Source: an uncultured Bizionia sp.
GTDB taxonomy: Bacteria; Bacteroidota; Bacteroidia; Flavobacteriales; Flavobacteriaceae
Length of the DNA stretch: 64,000 bases
Direction: 5' to 3'
NCBI GenBank assembly: GCA_947496215.1
Contig: CANMCF010000020.1
Location: 21,410-85,409, forward strand
The notes beneath the pieces are model-generated. The model saw only the letters and a list, made by a program, of their open reading frames with translations, had not been told where the DNA came from and did no database searches. Below, in pieces: positions 15,398 to 34,624 of this stretch. Positions within the stretch are counted from its first letter, which is position 1, and every line of letters begins with the position of its first letter. Position numbers and translations under genes: made by a program.

Positions 15398-16257
15398 TGA
15401 GTTTGACAGAAGACATAAAATATAAGTTGGCAAGACTCAACGTGCTTGAAAAAACAATAGTGGTCAACCTTGTTGTTTTTTTCATTGTACTATTGCTTAA
15501 ACCTTTCTTGGGAACTTTTTTGAGTTGGTTCGAGTTACCCAGTAAGTTCAATGGATTTTTAATAAAGCCATGGACGATAGTGAGCTATGCTTTTTTGCAT
15601 TATGGCTTTATACATTTGTTGTTTAACATGCTATGGCTATATTTCATAGGTAGGATCTTCTTGAATCTATTCAGTCCCAAAATGGCTTTGAACATCTATT
15701 TTCTAGGAGCTATGGTTGGAGGATTTGTCTTCCAAATTGGTTATGGGCTATTTCCGAATTTCTTTTCGGAAAATGCTTATTTAATAGGGGCTTCTGCAGC
15801 AGTGCGAGCACTTTTCATCTTTTTATGTGCATATATGCCAAACAAGGAGATTCGTATCATTGCATTCAATTTGAAACTATGGTATCTGGGAGCTTTTTTT
15901 GTTGCCATAGATGCCATAGGTGTCTTTGGACAAGTTAATCAAGGCGGGAACTTGGCACACTTGGGGGGAGCTCTGTTGGGATATGTCTATGCCAAGCAAC
16001 TATTGAAAGGCAATGACATAGGTCGTGGTTTCGAGAGTATTGTGGATACCGTTTCAGGATGGTTTCGTTTCTCGAACAAAACCAATATGAAAACGGTCTA
16101 TAAGGACAAATCCAAGGTAGGAGGGTATACTAAAGGGGAATTTAATCAGTTTAACAATCAGAAGAAAGTTGATGTCATATTGGATAAGATTAGTAAAAGT
16201 GGTTATGAAAGTCTTACAGCCGAGGAAAAAGAATTCTTGTTTAAAGCGGGGAAATAA
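15397..16257 (+). CDS. Rhomboid family protein
   Basis: FLHYGFIHLLFNMLWLYFIGRIF, GASAAVRALFIF, NLAHLGGALLGYVYA; start at MSLTED overlaps the upstream stop. Confidence 0.9.
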   Translation: MSLTEDIKYKLARLNVLEKTIVVNLVVFFIVLLLKPFLGTFLSWFELPSKFNGFLIKPWTIVSYAFLHYGFIHLLFNMLWLYFIGRIFLNLFSPKMALNIYFLGAMVGGFVFQIGYGLFPNFFSENAYLIGASAAVRALFIFLCAYMPNKEIRIIAFNLKLWYLGAFFVAIDAIGVFGQVNQGGNLAHLGGALLGYVYAKQLLKGNDIGRGFESIVDTVSGWFRFSNKTNMKTVYKDKSKVGGYTKGEFNQFNNQKKVDVILDKISKSGYESLTAEEKEFLFKAGK

Positions 16258-16414
16258 CATTGAGAAAATTGTATAACAAACAAAATTAACAAGGGTTTCC
16301 GCTTTGACGGAGAATGAAGATGAAATAACCCATAACAGCAGAGTTAATATAAACCTGAACAAACTATTTTTGGCAAATTCCATCTAATCTTTGAAAAGAA
16401 ATAAATGCAAATAG

Positions 16415-17437
16415 ATGAAAGGATTGAAGTTTTTTGAGAAAATAGTATTCTTCTTCAACTCTGTTGCGGCATTTATCTTGTTGCTATCCTATATTCTACC
16501 ATTTTTGCCGCCTAAAACATTTTCTGCACTCTCCGTCTTGGGGCTTGGTGTGCCTTTTTTGATCATCCTAAACGTCGTATTCCTATTGTATTGGTTGGTG
16601 AAGGTAAAAAAGCATTTGCTACTATCGCTTGTGGTTTTGGCGTTAGGCTATATGTCCTTTGGGTCTTTATACAAGTTTTCAGAATCCAAGACCATAGAAA
16701 AACCTGAAAACCTTTCCATAATGAACTACAATGTTAGGTTGTTCAATCTATATGATTGGATTCCGGAAAAAAACATTGAAACAAAGTTGGTGGGTTTCAT
16801 AAAGGAGGAATCTCCAGACATCCTGTCTCTCCAGGAATACCATCCACATGAAAACATAGATCTTTCTTTTTTCAAGTATAAATACGAAAAGCTTTCTGGC
16901 AACAAAACCAAATATGGACAAGCCATCTTTTCCAAATACCCAATTGTGAGATCTGGTTCAGTAGCTTTTCCAAATACACCCAATAATGCGATTTATGCAG
17001 ATGTGGTGAAAGGGAAGGATACCATACGGGTGTACAACATCCACTTGGAGTCTTTGCGAATAGATCCCAAGGTACAGAGTTTGACAAAGGAAGATTCAGA
17101 AAAGCTTTTCAATGGGGTAGGGAAGACTTTTAAGATGCAGCAACTTCAAGCGGAGTTGTTTTTAAAGCATAAGGCAGAATGCAATTACAAGATGGTTATA
17201 TGCGGGGATTTTAACAATACTGCATTTTCCTACGTCTATAAAGTCATAAGAGAAGATTTGAATGATACCTTTAAAGTTGCTGGAAACGGATTTGGAAGAA
17301 CATACGATTTAAAGTTTTTTCCTTTGAGGATAGATTTCATCTTAACCGACAAGGCTTTCGAAATCAATAGCTTCAAGACTTATGATGTGGAATATTCCGA
17401 TCATTACCCTGTAATGACGAAATTAAGCTTGAATTGA
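16415..17437 (+). CDS. Membrane-anchored endonuclease/exonuclease/phosphatase family protein
   Basis: N-terminal TM segments; SIMNYNVRLFN, ILSLQEYHP, VICGDFNNTAFSYVY, RIDFILTDKAFE, YSDHYPVMTKL. Confidence 0.9.
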   Translation: MKGLKFFEKIVFFFNSVAAFILLLSYILPFLPPKTFSALSVLGLGVPFLIILNVVFLLYWLVKVKKHLLLSLVVLALGYMSFGSLYKFSESKTIEKPENLSIMNYNVRLFNLYDWIPEKNIETKLVGFIKEESPDILSLQEYHPHENIDLSFFKYKYEKLSGNKTKYGQAIFSKYPIVRSGSVAFPNTPNNAIYADVVKGKDTIRVYNIHLESLRIDPKVQSLTKEDSEKLFNGVGKTFKMQQLQAELFLKHKAECNYKMVICGDFNNTAFSYVYKVIREDLNDTFKVAGNGFGRTYDLKFFPLRIDFILTDKAFEINSFKTYDVEYSDHYPVMTKLSLN

Positions 17438-23318: not shown

Positions 23319-23608
23319 TAAATGATTTGGTTTTATTATGTGTAAAAATACAATTATTTATGACTAATAAAAACGGAATTTGTTAACAGTTGGTTAAACT
23401 AAACAACAGCATGTCATGGCTGCTTTTTTAGATTACTATGTTTTAGTGCTTGTAGCTTGGTGAAATAAAGAAGTGGAAGTCAGAAATAATTGCTTTTTCA
23501 AAGATTAAAATCATTTGACAATGATATTTGTAGTTAATTTCTTAACAAAAAGACAGTTTGGTATAAATACCTGAATAGTCGATTTATACTCTAAATTAGA
23601 CTTCAGAT

Positions 23609-23719
23609 ATGACCTTTCTTTGTATAACTCAACCAGAAGAAGTTTCAAATAAGGTAGAGTATGTGGTATCTGAAAAACCTATGATTAAACAGAGTAAGAA
23701 ATTAATTGAACAATTATGA
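23609..23719 (+). CDS. Candidate 36-aa ORF overlapping the next gene start (ATGA)
   Basis: MTFLCITQPEEVSNKVEYVVSEKPMIKQSKKLIEQL*; stop TGA overlaps the ATG of 23716..23958. Confidence 0.45.
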   Translation: MTFLCITQPEEVSNKVEYVVSEKPMIKQSKKLIEQL

Positions 23720-23958
23720 AAATCACAAACAAGTCAGGTAAAACAGTGGAATTGAGTGTCAACAAATGGGGGGATTCTGGAAATACGAGTTACTTTACGG
23801 TTAAAAACGATAAAAGTGAATCTTGGGGAAGGTCGGATGTGAGAGGGTTTGTCCTATCTCTTTCTCAGGGAGGAAGTACTTATCCATTTCTCATTATGGC
23901 CTACAACGACTATAAGGTGACTCATTCTGGAGGGAAGTTCGTAGTGAGTGTTGCATAG
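23716..23958 (+). CDS. Small uncharacterised beta-rich protein (80 aa)
   Basis: MKITNKSGKTVELSVNKWGDSGNTSYFTVKNDKSESWGRSDVRGF...; followed by a terminator-like hairpin. Confidence 0.7.
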   Translation: MKITNKSGKTVELSVNKWGDSGNTSYFTVKNDKSESWGRSDVRGFVLSLSQGGSTYPFLIMAYNDYKVTHSGGKFVVSVA

Positions 23959-23964
23959 TCATAG

Positions 23965-24011
23965 AAAAACTCATGGTGAAATGATTTAGATCTTCATCAT
24001 GAGTTTTTTAT
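23965..24011 (+). terminator. Terminator-like hairpin after the 80-aa gene
   Basis: aaaaactcatggtgaa...ttcatcatgagttttt complementary arms ending in a T run. Confidence 0.6.
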
Positions 24012-24105
24012 ATTGTTTTAAATAGCCTTGAAGACTATTCTTGATGTAGTAAGGTCGTTTAAATATGGAACCAATAGATGAGGTCTGTATAGATGCGGTT
24101 CTTTT

Positions 24106-27100
24106 CTATTGAAGTACTTGGTTTTTAAAAGTGTGCCTTATCCCAAACTTCAAATAGTTTGAATTGATATTTAAGCTTGAATGTGTATAATATTCAAAAT
24201 TTGAATTAAGACTAGTGTAATCTGTTAGTTTACAGGATAGAGTACCTATGAATCTATAAAAACTCCCTGTCTGATTATCAATAAAGTATGAAGCTTCTGT
24301 TTCTAAACTGACTTTTTTGTCTTGCATTTCAAATTTAAAAGAACTCCCTCCTCCATAATAAAATCTCTTTTTCACTATCCAATAAGGGGATTCAATTGAG
24401 TAGTGTGAATTTGAAAGACTCCCCGATAATTCAATAAGTGGGTATACTTTAAATGAATTGTCAAAAAGCTTATACTGTGTTTTACCAGTTAGAATAGTAT
24501 TAAAGGAATCATCGGTATAATATGAATTTTCCAAAGCAATACTTAAAAACTGTTTTTTGTTGATGGGCCTTTCTAAATATGAAGTAAGATTCAATATGTA
24601 AATTCCAGAATTAAAGGCTACTGTCGTATTGACGGGGTGTATTTGGAGTTCAAATGAATTAAAAGTTTTAGCTTTCTTAATAATGACAGCTCCAAGGTTT
24701 AAAGTGTAATATAGCTTTGATTGTTTGGATATGTCAATCCCACCTTTTCCCCAATAACTGAATTTAGGATTTGCACCTTTTTTTTCAAGCTTGTAATGTA
24801 AACCATAAGCGCTATTGTCTTGGTTGTATTTTGAAGCTTGAAATGATAATTTATTGAAGGTATTATGCGAAAAGGATAAACTATGAGTGTTTGATTTGCT
24901 GTCAATAGTATGATAGTTTATCTGATTAAAGATGCTAGTGTTTTCATTATTGTCTTGCTGAACAATGCTTTGTGCCTCATATCTGTCATTTTCTAAAAGA
25001 CGAATGGTTTTTAAAATATCCTTCTTTACTTCTAAATAGAAAAGATCAGAATGATTTTTAAGCAATTCTTTTTGGGTAGTAATATCTGTGTATTTCACAT
25101 CTCGATTCAATGAAGCTCTAATTGTTTCTTTTGTATAAATACTGGGTAAGCTGTTTGTCAAGATCCATGATTTTTTTAATTCACCCATCGCATGATATAG
25201 TTTAGCCATTGCGCCTTTTGTATGAAAATCTTCTGGGTTATTTGTTATATGGGACATATAAGTTGTTTCTAAAGCTTTATAATCATTAACGTCATAGAGC
25301 CATTGAAGCTTATTGGTTATCATTGTTTTTGAAGAGCACTCTGTCCACTTCAATGCTTTTCGGTATTTCTTTCGATCTGCATAAAACCATGAGATTTGAG
25401 GGCTTAATTTATGCAATGTGCTATCGACGCAGGGCGTTAATTTATCTATTTCAAGACTTGCTAAGTTTGGATGTCTATAAAGCAATTGTTCGTAATATTT
25501 AGATAGGGATATTTTTTTAATAGCTGATAACGAATCAATGTTCATAAACCAATTTAATTTTGAATCGATATCAATCTCATTATTGCAAGCAGCCCATTTA
25601 ATTGCCTCTCGATATTTTTTTCGTTTTGCATAATACCATACAATCGATGAGTTTAAATGGTCTATTTCCCTGTTTTCACAAGGAGTTTCCTTTTTTAGTA
25701 TTTCGATTGCTTGATCCGAACCTATAGTTAATAAATGATTGAGATAGAGTTTTTGGTTTTCTTCAGATTTATTTAACTGATAGAGCTTCTTGTAAAGTTT
25801 GGAAATGGCATTGTCAAAATGATCATGATTGGAGAAAGTTAAATAGTCTTTAATTAATTCAGGGTCTTCATTTGAACTAGCTATCATTTTTTTCAACCAT
25901 TTGTTTTTATAATCATTATTCGGGTAACCTATTTCTATGCTCAAAACTTTTGCAAATAGGATGTTCTCTTTATGTGGGTTTTTATCACAATATAATTCAA
26001 AATTATCCCAAGCCTGTTCTATTTGATTTGTCCATGACATATATTTAAAATAGGATAGCCAAAGATTCTTATCTATTGTTTTTTTTGAGAGAATTCTACT
26101 TTCAATTATTTTAATAGCAGCAGTGATGTCTTGGTTTGCGATATGGTTGTCTATTTTTAAGTCAAAGTTTAGATATTCATTTTGCTGAGCTGTATAGTGT
26201 AGATGTCTTTTTTTGAAATCTTCTTGTTTACTATGCTTGTTGTCTTTATTTAGTTCGTGTTTTTTTATATTAACGATGCTTAACTTTTTTTTTTGCGTTT
26301 TAATAGTCAGCAAGTAGCCATTAAAAATAGGGGTTTTTGAAAATGAAATATTGTTTTTGGCAAGGTCATTCGTGATTAATTTAAGATTTGATGAAGAGGC
26401 GTATACAAACCAATATTGTTCACGTTGATCTTCATCTTGCTCTTCAGAAACGAATACTTCATATCTATTGCTTCCATTTCTATGAATGTAGATGTCTGAT
26501 CTCCATTTCTTGGTAATTTCAACAGCATCAGCAGTTGTCTGATATTGTATCATTGGGAAAAGTTTTTTATAATCAATCAAGTATTCTTTGAAAATGGGAA
26601 ACATCCCTTTTTTATTTCCTTTGGAAGTTCTCCAGCCCAATCCATCTTTATTTCTTAATTCAAAATGATCATTGTGCTGATTGTGGTTGTTGGGGATTTG
26701 GTAAACATCATCGGGGTGGATAAAATGAGACCATATTCCTGTATATAGATATAATGATTGTTTTTCGTATTCATCATTATCATTCAGGTTATAACCATGG
26801 GTTATTCTGGGGAAATCAAAAATATCTTCTAAGTATGGGTCAGGGTCATAATCTCTAGCCCCTCCATTTTCTTTTTTTCCATCGTATAAACTACACATGT
26901 ATTTAATGGAAGGCATTCCTTGTTTTAACTTAGCCAATCCCAGGCTATCAATATAGTTAGATGGAGGAACATATGTAACAGGAAACTTTCCATAATGGTT
27001 AATGGTCCATTTTTTATTTACGGCATTCAAAGCAATAGGTATGTTGTTAATGTTATTCCATTCCGACTTCAACAATGAAATATGGTTGTATCCATGAAGA

Positions 27101-28152
27101 CCTAGCTCATGTTTTGATTTTATTACATCATGCGTAATATAATCTGCGATAGGAATTTTGGCGTTGTTTATTGTTGTTTTTGCAGAGTTCCATTCTTTAA
27201 AAAGAAACGATGGTTCAGTTGAACCATTATAGCTAAAAGAAGGAATTGCAGTATATTTAACATTAAGAGAATCGGCAAGGTCTTTCATATCTTCCCACCA
27301 AACATTGCTAATGAAATCTGAAATGCTCAAATCCATTTCTGATGCTATTGGTTCAGCTTTTATAGGATAGACTGGAGACGGAAAATCATCAATAAATATA
27401 GTGTTTACATTTGCAATAGGATATGGGATGCCTTCTAGGCCGTTCAATACAAGAGAAAAAAGCAAGCCTCTGTCCATTCTGCTTAAATTGTGTTGGCTGT
27501 TATAATAAAACACCTTGCCAGATCCAATTTTGTTTTGGGTGATCAAAGGATAATTTTTATTTGTTTGAGAAGACGCTATTATGCTAATGTCATTAGAGAA
27601 ATTTGATGCTTCTAATCCATAATGATCGACCTCTTGTAAAAGGTTTTTTCTTTTTAAGTTGGGCAATAAAGGAGTGTTGAAAAAAAAACCTGACTCTTTG
27701 AGGCTAAGAGAATAAAGTGCTTTGGCTTCTATGCCTATTAAAAAACCTAGCCTTCTATCCTGACATAAATTGGGGATTATCAATGTACCTCCTCGTTCAA
27801 CAAAGTGGTGTATCTTTTCTACACCATAAGTCGTCAGCTTTTTAGTGCCAACAATGCAAAGTATGGCTCCATTAAAATTTGTGTCGGTTTTATTCCAATT
27901 GTCTATCTCTATGCTTGAATAAGGCATTTTTGTGTAATCACAAACCTTTTGCATATTTTGTTCATATACGATGCTTACCGAATCGTTTTTGTCCAATATG
28001 AAGTTTACAACAGCACTTTCATCATGTTTCTTTGTGAAATTTCTGATAATTTTATTAGAAATTTTAGACTCGGGCATATTGTGTTTTATAATAAAGAAAG
28101 AAACTAGCAATAAGGTTGCAAAGATATATTTGTAAACTTTCATATAGTGCAT
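24106..28152 (-). CDS. Predicted fusion: PelA-like/DUF2194-type polysaccharide deacetylase, TPR region and outer-membrane beta-barrel (PelB-like)
   Basis: 1348 aa: N-terminal signal/anchor; NTIFIDDFPSP and KHELGLHGYNH (CE4-like metal-binding motifs); long helical repeats (e.g. DSTLHKLSPQISWFYADRKKYRKALKW); about 270 C-terminal residues with alternating amphipathic strands ending FGIRHTFKN. Confidence 0.7.
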   Translation of the reverse strand: MHYMKVYKYIFATLLLVSFFIIKHNMPESKISNKIIRNFTKKHDESAVVNFILDKNDSVSIVYEQNMQKVCDYTKMPYSSIEIDNWNKTDTNFNGAILCIVGTKKLTTYGVEKIHHFVERGGTLIIPNLCQDRRLGFLIGIEAKALYSLSLKESGFFFNTPLLPNLKRKNLLQEVDHYGLEASNFSNDISIIASSQTNKNYPLITQNKIGSGKVFYYNSQHNLSRMDRGLLFSLVLNGLEGIPYPIANVNTIFIDDFPSPVYPIKAEPIASEMDLSISDFISNVWWEDMKDLADSLNVKYTAIPSFSYNGSTEPSFLFKEWNSAKTTINNAKIPIADYITHDVIKSKHELGLHGYNHISLLKSEWNNINNIPIALNAVNKKWTINHYGKFPVTYVPPSNYIDSLGLAKLKQGMPSIKYMCSLYDGKKENGGARDYDPDPYLEDIFDFPRITHGYNLNDNDEYEKQSLYLYTGIWSHFIHPDDVYQIPNNHNQHNDHFELRNKDGLGWRTSKGNKKGMFPIFKEYLIDYKKLFPMIQYQTTADAVEITKKWRSDIYIHRNGSNRYEVFVSEEQDEDQREQYWFVYASSSNLKLITNDLAKNNISFSKTPIFNGYLLTIKTQKKKLSIVNIKKHELNKDNKHSKQEDFKKRHLHYTAQQNEYLNFDLKIDNHIANQDITAAIKIIESRILSKKTIDKNLWLSYFKYMSWTNQIEQAWDNFELYCDKNPHKENILFAKVLSIEIGYPNNDYKNKWLKKMIASSNEDPELIKDYLTFSNHDHFDNAISKLYKKLYQLNKSEENQKLYLNHLLTIGSDQAIEILKKETPCENREIDHLNSSIVWYYAKRKKYREAIKWAACNNEIDIDSKLNWFMNIDSLSAIKKISLSKYYEQLLYRHPNLASLEIDKLTPCVDSTLHKLSPQISWFYADRKKYRKALKWTECSSKTMITNKLQWLYDVNDYKALETTYMSHITNNPEDFHTKGAMAKLYHAMGELKKSWILTNSLPSIYTKETIRASLNRDVKYTDITTQKELLKNHSDLFYLEVKKDILKTIRLLENDRYEAQSIVQQDNNENTSIFNQINYHTIDSKSNTHSLSFSHNTFNKLSFQASKYNQDNSAYGLHYKLEKKGANPKFSYWGKGGIDISKQSKLYYTLNLGAVIIKKAKTFNSFELQIHPVNTTVAFNSGIYILNLTSYLERPINKKQFLSIALENSYYTDDSFNTILTGKTQYKLFDNSFKVYPLIELSGSLSNSHYSIESPYWIVKKRFYYGGGSSFKFEMQDKKVSLETEASYFIDNQTGSFYRFIGTLSCKLTDYTSLNSNFEYYTHSSLNINSNYLKFGIRHTFKNQVLQ

Positions 28153-30080
28153 TAAAATATTAAATCCAAAATTTTGCTGGAATCTGGGGTGTTCACAATT
28201 TCATAGACTTTAAGAGGTCCGTCTTCCATAAACAAATTAACTGTTCGTCTTTTACATACAAGTTTTTCAATTTGTTCAACAATAGCATTAGGTGTGTTGT
28301 ATCGTGTATGTTTTGATTTCAAAATAAATACCAAAATTGTTTTGGGTAATACGTATTCAGGATTTTCGTCAAAGAACTTTTTGTCAGATAAATGCTGATG
28401 ATATATGCTTTCTTGCTCATTGTAGTCATTTGTGAAATATTCATGAGGTATGAAATAATGAGAGTTTCTGCTAAGGGGTTTTCCATAGTCATTATTTACA
28501 ATAGCATAAGAAAAGGGTAAATAAGTATCAAATATTTTTTCATATGTTTTTAGAATCAATTGTTTTTCTGAATCGATTTTTTGTATGTTGTTTTCAGTAA
28601 ATTGACTATGATTGTAGTAAAAAAAATAAAAACTGAATGACATGAAAAGTGTTGGGATAAGCTTTTTGTTTTTGAATTTGAAGACTTTTTTGCTGAGAAT
28701 TCCAAAATTGCCTGCTAGCAAGGCAATTATAATTGGAATGAAAACACATAATGATTGATTTAGCAAATCCTTATCCCACCAATAGCTATCAATATATGTG
28801 AGGAGAATTAACAAGCATGTACATGAGCTAAAGATGAATTGTAGATAAAACGCTTTTCTCAAATATCTTTTTAGAGTTATTAATATCGTTAGATTTAATG
28901 TGGTAAATGTAAAAAAGATGATTTTCATCTTTTTGTAAGAAAGCAACAACAAAGGAGAGTCCGTATAAATAGATACATCGATAATATTATTCTGTAAAAA
29001 TGTTAGAAAGTTTGTTTGCTTTATGACGCACATTATGTAATGTAGACAAAGAATGATTGTAGTGCCCAACAGGTAGGCCCTTATGCTTTGGTATTTTGCA
29101 TGATTGTATATCTTAGGAGTAAATAGAATTAAGCATAGTAGTAGTATAGGTACTAGAATAACGGCTGTGAATAAATTGATTAGTGTTATTGCAGCAAAAA
29201 TCAGTGTTAAATCAAAATTAAAACCAAATAGTCTTGAAGTTTTAAAATGTGGATTTACTATATAGGGAATAGTTGGTAATGCGAAACACAAACTTAAAAA
29301 AATGGATTTGTGTTCGAAAACATAATTAATGTTAATAGGGATAATGTTTATGTAAAAAATAAAAATCAATGAAGCTATCAAAGCCAAGATTTTATTTGTG
29401 TCATTTAACTTAGATGTTACCCAAAAAATAATCAAGGCTAAAAAAATTGTTTCTATAACCCCAAAGGATTGCAATGCTAACTCGGAACTGATTCCTGTTA
29501 GTTTTTGATAAAAATTTATAAGTGTTAGTTCTCCATTTATAGATAGGGAGTCATTATACAGGCTATTGAAATTCATTGATTTTATAGCGTTTAGATCACT
29601 TAGCCAAAAATCAGACAACAAGTATAAATCATATTCAATTAAATAAAAACGACTTGTGATGACTGCTAGACTGATTATGAGAATAACTAAAAATGATTGA
29701 AGTATTGGGGTAGATATTCTGCAGTTTAAATTTATTTTGGAGTAATGATTCAATTCTTTCAGTAATCGTAGAATGATTAATTCTTTTTCTTGCCTTAACA
29801 CCGAAAGGAATTGTCTGCCTTTCTTTTGCTTAAAATAATGCAAGAAGAAAAGTGTCGACAAAGTTAAATAGGCGCTTATAGAATCGTAAAGGTTAAGTAA
29901 GGTAAGTATGTAGTTGATTATGACCAAACAACTTCCGTAGGTTATCAATATGAAAATGTAATTTTCAAAAGGTTTGTTAAATATAGTTTTGTTGGTGATT
30001 TTATTATTGATAAAGGTTAGTAAAATCACAAGTAGGGTTATTCTTGCGAACCCTATGGAGAGTAAAAAATTATAAAGCAT
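28152..30080 (-). CDS. Polytopic membrane protein of unknown function in a Pel-like operon
   Basis: 642 aa, many hydrophobic helices plus a soluble C-terminal region; overlaps the downstream gene by 1 nt. Confidence 0.7.
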   Translation of the reverse strand: MLYNFLLSIGFARITLLVILLTFINNKITNKTIFNKPFENYIFILITYGSCLVIINYILTLLNLYDSISAYLTLSTLFFLHYFKQKKGRQFLSVLRQEKELIILRLLKELNHYSKINLNCRISTPILQSFLVILIISLAVITSRFYLIEYDLYLLSDFWLSDLNAIKSMNFNSLYNDSLSINGELTLINFYQKLTGISSELALQSFGVIETIFLALIIFWVTSKLNDTNKILALIASLIFIFYINIIPININYVFEHKSIFLSLCFALPTIPYIVNPHFKTSRLFGFNFDLTLIFAAITLINLFTAVILVPILLLCLILFTPKIYNHAKYQSIRAYLLGTTIILCLHYIMCVIKQTNFLTFLQNNIIDVSIYTDSPLLLLSYKKMKIIFFTFTTLNLTILITLKRYLRKAFYLQFIFSSCTCLLILLTYIDSYWWDKDLLNQSLCVFIPIIIALLAGNFGILSKKVFKFKNKKLIPTLFMSFSFYFFYYNHSQFTENNIQKIDSEKQLILKTYEKIFDTYLPFSYAIVNNDYGKPLSRNSHYFIPHEYFTNDYNEQESIYHQHLSDKKFFDENPEYVLPKTILVFILKSKHTRYNTPNAIVEQIEKLVCKRRTVNLFMEDGPLKVYEIVNTPDSSKILDLIF

Positions 30081-30089
30081 AAAACTAAA

Positions 30090-30893
30090 TTATCTAAAAG
30101 ATGGGGAGGTCTGTAGATTGATGTTTCCAATAAATTTAGACCATTTTCTAGGTAATCTTCTTTTAATTTTTCTATTGATTTTTCTTGAATCGCTATATTC
30201 AATAATGATCACTTCTTTTTTATATTTTTCATAGGCTTCTTGGATTGTTTTCTTTCTTGATTTAAAATCGCTTTTCTCTCTAATAGCATAGGATGAAGTC
30301 TTAAAGTCATAATCGGTAACTAATGATTCAATTACTATGGATGATATATAAGCGTGTGTGTTTGGAAGTAGTTCTAAACCAGAGTTCTGTATTAGTTTTA
30401 AATGATCGTTTTTGTCTTTGATCTCTTTAATGAGACTAATTAGATGATCTTTTTGAAAATAGCTTTTTCCATAGCGGCAAAAATTGTCGATATTGTCTAA
30501 AAATAAACCGTCAAACCCTAATGTTGCTAATGATTTTACATGTTTCATTAAAACTTTGCGAGTTTCTTTAGCAGATAGATCAATGAAATAGCTGTCCCAA
30601 ATTTTGTTTTTGCCAACTAGATTGTTCTTTACCTCTTTAAAATAAGTGGTATATTCATTAACTTCTCCTAGGCTAATATAAGCGAAAATAGTGGTGTTGT
30701 TTTTTTTTAAAACAGCTATATCTGTTTTTGAATAATGCTGAGCTTCTAAAATAACATAATCATAACCATTGATTGATTCTGGAGCTACTTTTCCATAGCA
30801 TAAGTAAATAGTTTTTTTGTCAAACTCTTCAGCAGGAGCCAAATGATTGATAGATGTAAAGATCAAAATGAAAATTATTTTAAAATGATGCAT
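30090..30893 (-). CDS. GH114-like endo-alpha-1,4-polygalactosaminidase (PelA hydrolase-domain-like)
   Basis: Signal peptide; YDYVILEAQHYSKTDIAVLKKNNTTIFAYISLGEVNEY and LGFDGLFLDNIDNF motifs. Confidence 0.83.
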   Translation of the reverse strand: MHHFKIIFILIFTSINHLAPAEEFDKKTIYLCYGKVAPESINGYDYVILEAQHYSKTDIAVLKKNNTTIFAYISLGEVNEYTTYFKEVKNNLVGKNKIWDSYFIDLSAKETRKVLMKHVKSLATLGFDGLFLDNIDNFCRYGKSYFQKDHLISLIKEIKDKNDHLKLIQNSGLELLPNTHAYISSIVIESLVTDYDFKTSSYAIREKSDFKSRKKTIQEAYEKYKKEVIIIEYSDSRKINRKIKRRLPRKWSKFIGNINLQTSPSFR

Positions 30894-32469
30894 AATAATG
30901 ATAATCTAATTGAGTGAAAAAGCGCAATACTTTTCTTAGGGTTAATAGCATATAGGCAAAAGCACCGGTTAGCATACCAAATACACTATACTCATAATAA
31001 AAAAATCGACTTAAAACGAACCCGACTATTAAATTTGCTAAAAATCCAATTATAATAGATTTCAATGGCGTTGATGAAATGTTTAATGTAAATAGATATA
31101 AAGTATTTAGCATTCCCCATATCAACAGTATGTAACCAATACTTCCATATAAAAACACATTCAAGCCAATGTCTTTTAACTGTTCGTTGAAAAGTGATGA
31201 ATATCCCCATCGACTAGTAATTAAAAGATATAAAGCACTTGTTATGATTATTCCACTGACAATAAGTAAAGAAACGTTCCTCCAATAGGCTTTTTTAAAA
31301 TCATTATTAAATTTTTTCAAAGACTCAATCGATGTACTCCGTTGTTTGTAGTCTAAAAATTTACTGAATGTTGTTATGCTATATTCCAATACTCCAACCA
31401 TAAGGAAAAATGTGAGTACGGCCAAGTCCATACCAATTTCATAATTGGGTTCATAAAAAATAAAGTATGGTAAATCCCTGTTTATGTTTGATGACCAAGC
31501 CAATATTCGATCTAAGAAAACGAACAAATAGAAAAAAACGCCATATAAAAAGTAATTGAAATTCGAATATATTATTTGTGATGATTTAAGATCTTGGGAG
31601 ACATGGTTTAAATCATTTTTTTTTACGAATTTCAAATGGTGTTTTATAAATATTCGTGATATGAAAATGGACAAGCTAATTCCAATCCAGTGGGTGAGGT
31701 AAATGGGTAGAACATCCATAGCTTTCAAAAGTAAGGATATAGCAGTGCCAATTATGATGGCTACAGATGAAATCCAGCGTTGTTTCAATGGATACAAAGG
31801 AGCCAAGGCGAGAAGCAAATAACCAATCAAAAAAGAATAGCATGACATGACGATGAGTACACTGAATGGGTAGAAATTAAGAATGACATTCATTGTAAAC
31901 AATATTATAAAAACAAGGAGAAAAGTTTTTAACCCATTTTCAATTAAGTTGTTAATTGTTGATTTTGTGTTAATATAATCTTGATGATTCCAATAGAATG
32001 AAATTTGTTTACCTATTACTTGAACAAATCCGCCAGATACTATAAAACCAATTATAACCCCTAATACAACGGTTGTTGATTGCAATTCGTTGAATTCTAG
32101 GCTTGTCCATAGTGAATAGCCAAAGAGTACTATTGAGAATATTTGTAGGAATGCAGGCGTTTGATGGATTAAGCCAGCAGGGTATTTTGTGACGAACAGT
32201 TTAGTTTTTACCCATAGGTAATCTGATAATGGAAAATATTTTGGGTTTTCTATTTCAGGTAGATTAGAATCAAAAGTATTGCACTTGTCTTTAATTTCGT
32301 TGAACATTGTCTTGGCAAGTTCTTCTATAGAGGTAGATTGATAATCCGTTATGGCATCAATTTCCCTAATTCCAAGAGATTCTATGGTAGCAATAACTGC
32401 GTTAATATTTATAGGGACTCCAATTTTATCTTGAATGTCTTCCTTTAACTGTACTTTGTAATTGATCAT
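30880..32469 (-). CDS. pelG: PelG-like exopolysaccharide transporter
   Basis: 529 aa, polytopic after a ~90-residue soluble N-terminus; next to and overlapping the pelF-like gene; assignment partly by synteny. Confidence 0.6.
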   Translation of the reverse strand: MINYKVQLKEDIQDKIGVPININAVIATIESLGIREIDAITDYQSTSIEELAKTMFNEIKDKCNTFDSNLPEIENPKYFPLSDYLWVKTKLFVTKYPAGLIHQTPAFLQIFSIVLFGYSLWTSLEFNELQSTTVVLGVIIGFIVSGGFVQVIGKQISFYWNHQDYINTKSTINNLIENGLKTFLLVFIILFTMNVILNFYPFSVLIVMSCYSFLIGYLLLALAPLYPLKQRWISSVAIIIGTAISLLLKAMDVLPIYLTHWIGISLSIFISRIFIKHHLKFVKKNDLNHVSQDLKSSQIIYSNFNYFLYGVFFYLFVFLDRILAWSSNINRDLPYFIFYEPNYEIGMDLAVLTFFLMVGVLEYSITTFSKFLDYKQRSTSIESLKKFNNDFKKAYWRNVSLLIVSGIIITSALYLLITSRWGYSSLFNEQLKDIGLNVFLYGSIGYILLIWGMLNTLYLFTLNISSTPLKSIIIGFLANLIVGFVLSRFFYYEYSVFGMLTGAFAYMLLTLRKVLRFFTQLDYHYYASF

Positions 32470-34016
32470 ACAGATTTATAATTTATTTTTCCTTTCTGAT
32501 GAATTTTATCGGTTTTCTTATAATTGAAAAAAGATTTATAACTTTCTTCATAATTAGAAATAAAATCATTGATAGCAAAGTTGTCGATTATTCTAGCTCT
32601 GGCATTTTTTCCCATTTGTAAGCGAAGTTTGTCATCTGTTAATAGTGTAATTACCTTTTTAGCAATGTCTTTGTAATCTTTTGCTTTGCAGAGAAACCCA
32701 CAATCACTATTTAAAGCTTCATTTACGCCCCCAACATCGGTTGCTACTACTGGGATGCCACAACTCATAGATTCTATAACAGTATATGGGAAACCTTCAG
32801 AAATGGATGTAAGTATAGAAATGTCACCTTCAGGAAATATTTTATGAGGTTCGGAATGATGACCTGCCAATATAAAATGATTTTCTAGATTTAGTTCTTT
32901 TATGAGAGCTTCACACTGTTTAGTGTATTCTGGGACTGCATTTTTATTGCCATAAATTAAATATTTCACATTGGGTATGGTTCTTCTTGCTACATTACAT
33001 GATTTAATCATTGTAATGATGTCTTTTAGTTCAAAGATTCTAGCTGCTGCGACAACTGTAGGTCTGCCATCATTTGTTTTTGGCCTTATAATTGGTCTAA
33101 ATTTATCTGTGTCAATTCCATTATAGATTATTTTTATTTTTTTGGGATCCGCCCCATAGTTTTTTTCCCATTTTGTATTGAATTTATTTACAGATAGAAT
33201 TAAATCTGATTTATAATAGACTAAACGAGTTATGGATTCAGAAAATCTAATTAAAAAGTCTTTTAAAAAATTTGAATAATTAGAAGAGTTAATGGCAAGT
33301 AGCCTTTCTCTTATGAAAACCCCGTGTTCTGTTAAAATCAATGGTGTATTATGCTTAAACTTAGCTATTAAAGCAGGTAAAACAGTAAATCCAGCAATTG
33401 TAATGTGTGACACATTCACCTTGGGGACATCTATGGATATTGGCATTAAGAATCTATAAACCCACCGTAAACCCGTTGTTAAATCTATAAGGGTTGTTGA
33501 TTGTTTGTAGCTGGTTGCATTATCATTCATATAGTTTTTGTATGCATCCCAAACACATTTGCTAGTCATAGTTTTCTTATAATCATACATTTGAAAATAA
33601 CTCCACATTGAGAACAATACATTATACAGTTCGTCTAAATCCTTTTTTTCTGAATATATGATGTCTAATAGTTTTTTTATTAGAGGGACAAACTCTATGT
33701 CTATAGTTTTGAAATCGGTTATCTCTTTTCGACGGACAATTTTATAATATTGCTTCCCAAAATTTAAATAATCATGAGGTTCGTTAGGAGACCATATAGG
33801 CAATTGAATTACTTTTTTTACACTTTTTGGGAGTTCGCAATTATATTTTGATTCATAATTGGCATTGATGGAATAAATGTAATATTCGATTCCTTTTGTT
33901 TCATTGCATAAAGTATGAGCCCAAGTAGAAATACCTCCTCCATAAAAGGGATAATTTCCTTCAGTAATTAACATTACCTTTAAACTGGGAGCGCTATTTT
34001 TTTGTTGAGGGAGCAT
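32466..34016 (-). CDS. pelF: PelF-like GT4 glycosyltransferase
   Basis: KVMLITEGNYPFYGGGISTWAHTLCNE N-terminus; NGIDTDKFRPI; ILTSISEGFPYTVIESMSCGIPVVATDVGGVNEAL. Confidence 0.82.
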   Translation of the reverse strand: MLPQQKNSAPSLKVMLITEGNYPFYGGGISTWAHTLCNETKGIEYYIYSINANYESKYNCELPKSVKKVIQLPIWSPNEPHDYLNFGKQYYKIVRRKEITDFKTIDIEFVPLIKKLLDIIYSEKKDLDELYNVLFSMWSYFQMYDYKKTMTSKCVWDAYKNYMNDNATSYKQSTTLIDLTTGLRWVYRFLMPISIDVPKVNVSHITIAGFTVLPALIAKFKHNTPLILTEHGVFIRERLLAINSSNYSNFLKDFLIRFSESITRLVYYKSDLILSVNKFNTKWEKNYGADPKKIKIIYNGIDTDKFRPIIRPKTNDGRPTVVAAARIFELKDIITMIKSCNVARRTIPNVKYLIYGNKNAVPEYTKQCEALIKELNLENHFILAGHHSEPHKIFPEGDISILTSISEGFPYTVIESMSCGIPVVATDVGGVNEALNSDCGFLCKAKDYKDIAKKVITLLTDDKLRLQMGKNARARIIDNFAINDFISNYEESYKSFFNYKKTDKIHQKGKINYKSV

Positions 34017-34624
34017 TTGAGAGCAAATAAAAGTGTTGACTTTGATTGCAGCTAATTTACTTGAGTTAATTTTAGTGGATATAGATAAAAAGTGGTTTTA
34101 ATCGATGAAGTGTATATGTGTGTGATAGGAGTGAAATAAGTGAAAACATATACCGTTTTTAAAAATTATTTCACTATTAAGTTATCTCTTCAAAGCCATT
34201 TTTTAAGATTGTTACAAAAGGAGTTGAATAAGTTGTTTCTTATGTGAAATAGCTGAAATAGTACTATTTAAGATAGGAATATTATTGAAAAACACTAGAA
34301 GGGTTTTGTTTTAAGATGAAGCTGTAAATTTCAATCATAATACCTTATAACTTATGGTTTTTATGCCTATCAATTAGAATGTTTTTTATGTGTTTGTAGA
34401 TGAAAGTTGTTTTATTTCGATAAAATAAGATTTCTTCTAGAGCTGACCTCACCAAGTAAAAAAGGAGAGGTCTTTGTTTTGTACATTACAACCAATGGAC
34501 GTTTACCAGATTCTTTAGAAGAAAAAACTTTCTTTTTTGTATTAAAAAGAAATATGACCATATACGGAGTACAGACAGACAAAATGTTTCACAAGTTTTT
34601 AAATTTGAAATCAAATAGACTTGC

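Follow-up and report, generated by a model that had tools for sequence, protein, structure and literature searches.

In Pseudomonas, the four-domain CE21 deacetylase PelA and the exporter PelB, which is formed by a TPR scaffold and a 16-stranded barrel, are separate proteins that act together; the hydrolase is fused to the deacetylase, and the system includes a ring of the partner lipoprotein PelC (PMC12022489, PMC12141448). PelA reportedly deacetylates more when it interacts with PelB, and CE21 is characterized by a D-x-D first motif, a conserved His replacing the activating Arg, and the hydrolase domain in the same chain (PMC12022489). PelADA of Bacillus cereus, described in 2026, is a de-N-acetylase of alpha-1,4-GalNAc oligomers that is needed for Pel-dependent biofilm and is the founder of the families CE26 and CBM114; the same paper states that the coupling of Pel deacetylation and export to the inner-membrane machinery in Gram-negative bacteria is unclear (PMC13254593). 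The cellulose exporter BcsC and the PNAG exporter PgaA also consist of TPRs and a 16-stranded barrel and in their standard forms carry no fused enzyme domain. There is a precedent for an enzyme-exporter fusion, the BcsZC proteins of Zymomonas, where a periplasmic polysaccharide-modifying enzyme is joined to an outer-membrane exporter; that enzyme is a hydrolase of the cellulose system (PMC7112194).

The window, that is, the whole stretch of 64,000 nucleotides analysed here, comes from an uncultured Bizionia sp. and contains a five-gene Pel-like operon (Table 1). The last gene encodes 1348 amino acids in one intact frame without internal stops, as had been claimed in a preliminary description of this DNA. 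From the N- to the C-terminus, the protein consists of a membrane anchor, a CBM114-like alpha/beta/alpha domain, a CE26-type deacetylase, a small beta domain, TPR-like helices and a predicted 16-stranded barrel. Sequence and structural modelling support a covalent junction of a deacetylase having a complete metal and catalytic set with a TPR-like stretch and an exporter-type barrel. Unlike in Pseudomonas, the deacetylase shares its chain with the pore and not with the hydrolase, which has a gene of its own, and the operon contains no recognisable pelC; the arrangement differs from BcsZC in that the fused enzyme is a Pel-type deacetylase. The domain make-up, the intact catalytic set, the predicted barrel fold and the conservation of the operon and of the fusion were computed. 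We consider it likely (probability about 0.78) that the fusion protein, as the product of the last gene of a five-gene Pel-like operon of Bacteroidota, binds, partly deacetylates and exports the chain that PelF makes and PelG moves across the inner membrane.

Table 1. Coordinates of the operon genes and of the fusion protein domains in the window.
Feature	Coordinates	Strand	Evidence
Fusion protein, 1348 aa	24106..28152	(-)	intact ORF; 87 full-length sequences aligned
Residues 1-42, N-terminal hydrophobic stretch (anchor or signal) without a lipobox cysteine	28027..28152	(-)	
Residues 43-245, alpha/beta/alpha domain, homologue of CBM114 in B. cereus PelADA	27418..28026	(-)	profile match to PDB 9ZAU; naming after PMC13254593
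Residues 246-535, CE26-type metal-dependent deacetylase domain	26548..27417	(-)	alignment, profile, model; catalytic roles after PMC13254593
Residues 555-627, small beta-rich domain	26272..26490	(-)	model
Residues 639-1054, alpha-helical TPR-like solenoid	24991..26238	(-)	model and TPR profile matches
Residues 1057-1341, predicted 16-stranded outer-membrane barrel, exopolysaccharide-exporter type	24130..24984	(-)	model; Foldseek
Polytopic membrane protein with GT-C-like fold, 642 aa	28152..30080	(-)	model pLDDT 86; Foldseek; synteny
GH114 glycoside hydrolase, endo-alpha-1,4-polygalactosaminidase type, 267 aa	30090..30893	(-)	PF03537 E=1.8e-20
PelG-like inner-membrane exporter, 529 aa	30880..32469	(-)	PF16933; role by homology alone
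PelF glycosyltransferase, 516 aa	32466..34016	(-)	NF038011 163.3 bits, cut-off 100

Single-sequence searches of genomes and viral contigs yielded no relatives of the fusion protein; an alignment-based genome scan yielded 174, and 80 loci were fetched; most belong to Flavobacteriaceae, the rest to Roseivirga and a small number of other groups. The window protein and 86 others with the same architecture form the set of 87 full-length sequences used below, some of which may be one strain present through two collections (e.g. L043/L072, L045/L124). DUF2194 had 28 strong matches in 399 evenly sampled Bacteroidota genomes, and each of them lies in a frame of 1268-1641 aa. When 250 Bacteroidota genomes were scanned with a profile of the C-terminal half, this half was never seen alone: the hits were essentially the fusion frames, and the few others were weak and partial. 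On sequence grounds, the fusion is a conserved arrangement of Bacteroidota that is not peculiar to this genome. A frameshift or an assembly artefact was rejected as the source of the fusion, since the frame is common to the 87 sequences. In one locus (L120) the frame is broken into two parts of 813 and 452 aa, and another (L168, 2835-7727) contains a 1630-aa version with about 300 extra residues.

The pel cluster of Cetobacterium (Fusobacteriota) contains a homologous deacetylase, pelF, pelG and a polygalactosaminidase. However, the DUF2194 protein in this cluster is unfused, having about 610 aa, and it is encoded beside a GAF (PelD-like) protein, pelF and pelG. This hints at the fusion being the derived state. 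In the Cetobacterium cluster of locus L153, a 308-aa protein (16205-17131) follows pelG, and no outer-membrane exporter was recognised.

The N-terminal half had been described as a PelA-type deacetylase with the motifs FIDDFPSP and HELGLHGYNH. Both motifs are present, at positions 27396-27373 and 27111-27082, respectively. Pfam DUF2194 spans residues 30-585 (E=1.3e-65), and the Pfam scan of the window protein assigned no family outside it. The profile of the enzyme half, built from 52 relatives, has one strong structure match, that to B. cereus PelADA (PDB 9ZAU, E=7.9e-69), which covers profile positions 8-523 with both the CBM and CE domains and places the homology at residues about 50-565 of the fusion. 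The alignment maps PelADA residues D262/D263/H350/H354/P405/R458/H488/D491 to D255/D256/H353/H357/P397/R449/H479/D482. D255, D256, P397 and R449 are invariant in the 87 full-length sequences; 84 of them keep H353 and H357, and 85 keep H479 and D482. The CE26 signature, i.e. the Asp-Asp, the HxxxH metal triad, the base-coordinating Arg and the His acid with its Asp, is complete in the fusion. The features of CE21 are absent: D255 and D256 are adjacent instead of forming D-x-D, R449 is kept in 87/87 sequences, and the hydrolase is encoded separately. It is the Asp-Asp pair, the Arg and the homology to PelADA that make the enzyme half, as judged from its sequence, PelADA/CE26-like rather than similar to the CE21 domain of P. 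aeruginosa PelA. Thus the proposed deacetylase is retained, with DUF2194 and with all catalytic and metal residues in place, but not its attribution to the P. aeruginosa type. The likeness to PelADA includes the order of the CBM114-like, CE26 and beta-rich domains as well as all mapped catalytic residues. On the other hand, PelADA comes from a Gram-positive bacterium and is a separate protein with a single membrane pass, whereas the fusion continues with about 700 residues of TPR-like and barrel regions, and most of its relatives have an N-terminal lipobox-like cysteine.

The three exceptions at H353/H357 are L044, L045 and L124, the last of these by its near identity with L045; it looks like the same gene. 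L044 (12714-16643) and L045 (4130-8077) have RxxxD where the metal site normally has HxxxH. All three are orphan fusion genes: pelF, pelG, the GH114 gene and the membrane protein gene do not appear in their loci.

The C-terminal half had been described as a PelB-type pore. The AlphaFold model of residues 246-1348, made with a 52-row alignment, has mean pLDDT 85 and pTM 0.45; it recovers the deacetylase fold and the barrel, but at this pTM the relative placement of the domains is not predicted. Following the deacetylase and the small beta domain, the model has about two dozen helices in the region of the expected TPR-like middle. The TPR families of Pfam match some family members weakly, and a divergent member (L166) has strong TPR matches together with a weak PgaA_barrel match. 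The beta-rich C-terminal end, also foreseen, is modelled as 16 long strands, mostly with pLDDT around 90. The order characteristic of PelB, a TPR scaffold and then a 16-stranded outer-membrane barrel, is therefore present in the model. The five best Foldseek matches (E from 8e-11 to 1e-7) are, in order of rank, BcsC (9b8a, 9b8h), PgaA (barrel structure 4y25, with a target-based TM-score of 0.76), again BcsC (6tzk) and PelB (9h80, E=1.1e-7). The predicted fold is of the exopolysaccharide exporter type, with BcsC and PgaA at least as close as PelB. The profile of the C-terminal half has no match in PDB to PelB, BcsC or PgaA, and no PelB chain was found at E<=5, although divergence could hide homology. 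The general architecture of the pore stands, with no preference for PelB.

Porins and autotransporter barrels also appear among the Foldseek matches, so that the barrel could be that of a general porin or belong to another type of secretion; the deacetylase would then be a passenger whose substrate is peptidoglycan or an imported sugar. However, these matches have weaker scores, every one of the five best is an exopolysaccharide exporter of the TPR/barrel kind, and the gene has a fixed position behind pelF and pelG. We regard such a barrel as very improbable, and it is the only alternative that the present evidence makes unlikely.

The TPR-like region contains the cysteine pairs 825/856 and 908/939, which are jointly present or jointly absent in 86 of the 87 sequences, suggesting disulphides. 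Unlike the family median, the net charge of the TPR and barrel segments of the window protein is positive, as calculated for whole segments and not for the interior. It is not obviously suited to a cationic polymer.

One possibility is that the gene is fused and the protein is not, because a periplasmic protease cuts the linker after the small beta domain (residues about 633-640) or the loop near 488-496. The model has its low-confidence parts in these two places, and the unpredicted placement of the domains agrees with this. However, the fused frame is kept in all 87 sequences, no stand-alone C-terminal half occurs in the sample, and no cleavage motif was noticed, albeit without a systematic search. 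We assign a low probability to such processing and retain the single-chain exporter as the main interpretation.

The order pelF, pelG, GH114, membrane protein, fusion is observed in nearly all loci that are long enough, that is, in dozens of loci. Neighbouring genes of the operon overlap at their ends or are almost contiguous, consistent with a single transcript. PelF is a clear equivalog match. The match of PelG to PF16933 (E=1.9e-6, 27.5 bits) is just under the cut-off of 29. The Asp/Glu of the GH114 protein are invariant among 81 homologues. In the search of this genome with TIGR01370, the GH114 protein of the operon was the only match. In about 30 loci, the operon is adjoined by a further gene of the GH114 type, encoding about 330 aa (e.g. 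L034 16352-17347).

The 642-aa membrane protein is encoded directly upstream of the fusion gene in the complete operons examined. It matches no Pfam family; the best Foldseek matches of its model are the GT-C enzymes OST, PglB, ALG12 and ArnT (best E=2e-5, with TM-scores of only about 0.4), and its D151, a candidate for the acidic catalytic residue that GT-C enzymes have in their first loop, is invariant among homologues. Judging by this fold, it probably uses a lipid-linked sugar or joins an inner-membrane complex.

None of pelB, pelC, pelD and pelE was recognised within the operon. No constant sixth gene that could be pelC occurs in the operon across loci. PF16963, the family of the c-di-GMP receptor PelD, has no match in this genome, but control genomes gave no signal either. 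In other Bacteroidota, from families that do not belong to this class, HD-domain, GAF and SpoIIE-type proteins are encoded inside the operon (L170 3925-5520, L166 4962-8538); possibly, these are regulators replacing PelD.

The gene content leaves room for a polymer other than Pel proper, either one made of a different amino sugar or one of GalNAc to which the GT-C-like protein adds decorations. This protein is a constant neighbour of the fusion, and to our knowledge no such gene occurs in the described pel operons. The unrecognised PelC, PelD and PelE and the closeness of the barrel to BcsC and PgaA are in line with this. The clear identity of PelF, the GH114 family being that of alpha-1,4-polygalactosaminidases, and the similarity of the enzyme half to an enzyme shown to be active on alpha-1,4-GalNAc oligomers (PMC13254593) all speak against it. 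We consider a different or decorated polymer possible but doubtful.

Assuming a Pel-like polymer, the following sequence of events can be suggested. PelF would polymerise a chain of the (N-acetyl)galactosamine type, and PelG would carry it across the inner membrane. In the periplasm, where we place the enzyme domains, the CBM114-like domain would bind the chain and the CE26 domain would remove part of its N-acetyl groups. The TPR-like solenoid would then guide the chain towards the barrel of the same protein, through which it would leave the cell. The separate GH114 protein would trim the polymer, which is the job of the PelA hydrolase domain in P. aeruginosa, and the GT-C-like protein probably would use a lipid-linked sugar or enter an inner-membrane complex. 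We infer export, deacetylation, the product and the topology, as well as the substrate and the direction of its travel. As in the preliminary description, the covalent fusion would tether deacetylation to the pore. The advantage of one chain may be that the enzyme and the exit are co-located, by analogy with the effect of PelB on PelA. A more specific, tentative version is a Bacteroidota Pel-like machine in which one protein, mostly anchored to the outer membrane at both ends, binds, deacetylates and exports the chain, the GT-C-like protein adds a lipid-carried sugar in the periplasm, and separate PelB, PelC, PelD and PelE are dispensed with.

A cysteine near the N-terminus occurs in 85 of the 87 full-length sequences, mostly in a lipobox-like context, although only the presence of the cysteine is claimed. 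An automatic lipobox pattern flagged 82 of the 87, and in three of the five missed sequences the cysteine is seen by eye. The window protein and L080 have a hydrophobic N-terminal stretch without cysteine. Exposure of the enzyme on the cell surface by means of a lipoprotein export signal was also considered; the relatives give a mixed picture of acidic residues following the cysteine, and in several sequences the cysteine had been assigned wrongly by the automatic procedure.

In the literature searched, the fusion arrangement is described in no title or abstract, most subscription papers being outside its scope. One earlier survey of Gram-negative bacteria used PelC as the query, and a later one used the P. 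aeruginosa pel proteins (PMC7112168). Either type of survey could miss an operon of five genes that has no pelC and whose pore is fused. If the proposed function is correct, the range of Pel-like matrix polymers would widen to include a large environmental group of bacteria, and a conserved single-chain enzyme-exporter would allow the coupling of deacetylation and export to be tested directly.

The operon is AT-rich, with GC about 0.28-0.34 compared to 0.35-0.43 in the flanks. A phage or plasmid origin was rejected: neither the single-sequence nor the alignment-based scan gave relatives in viral contigs, and plasmids gave only enzyme halves from Fusobacteriota. The operon occupies a site between the parA and methylmalonyl-CoA mutase genes (window positions 23400-34622). 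In two congeners, the same interval contains different genes, encoding a 957-aa protein in one and proteins of 225 and 977 aa in the other. This points to a variable site, where the operon may have been gained or lost as a cassette.
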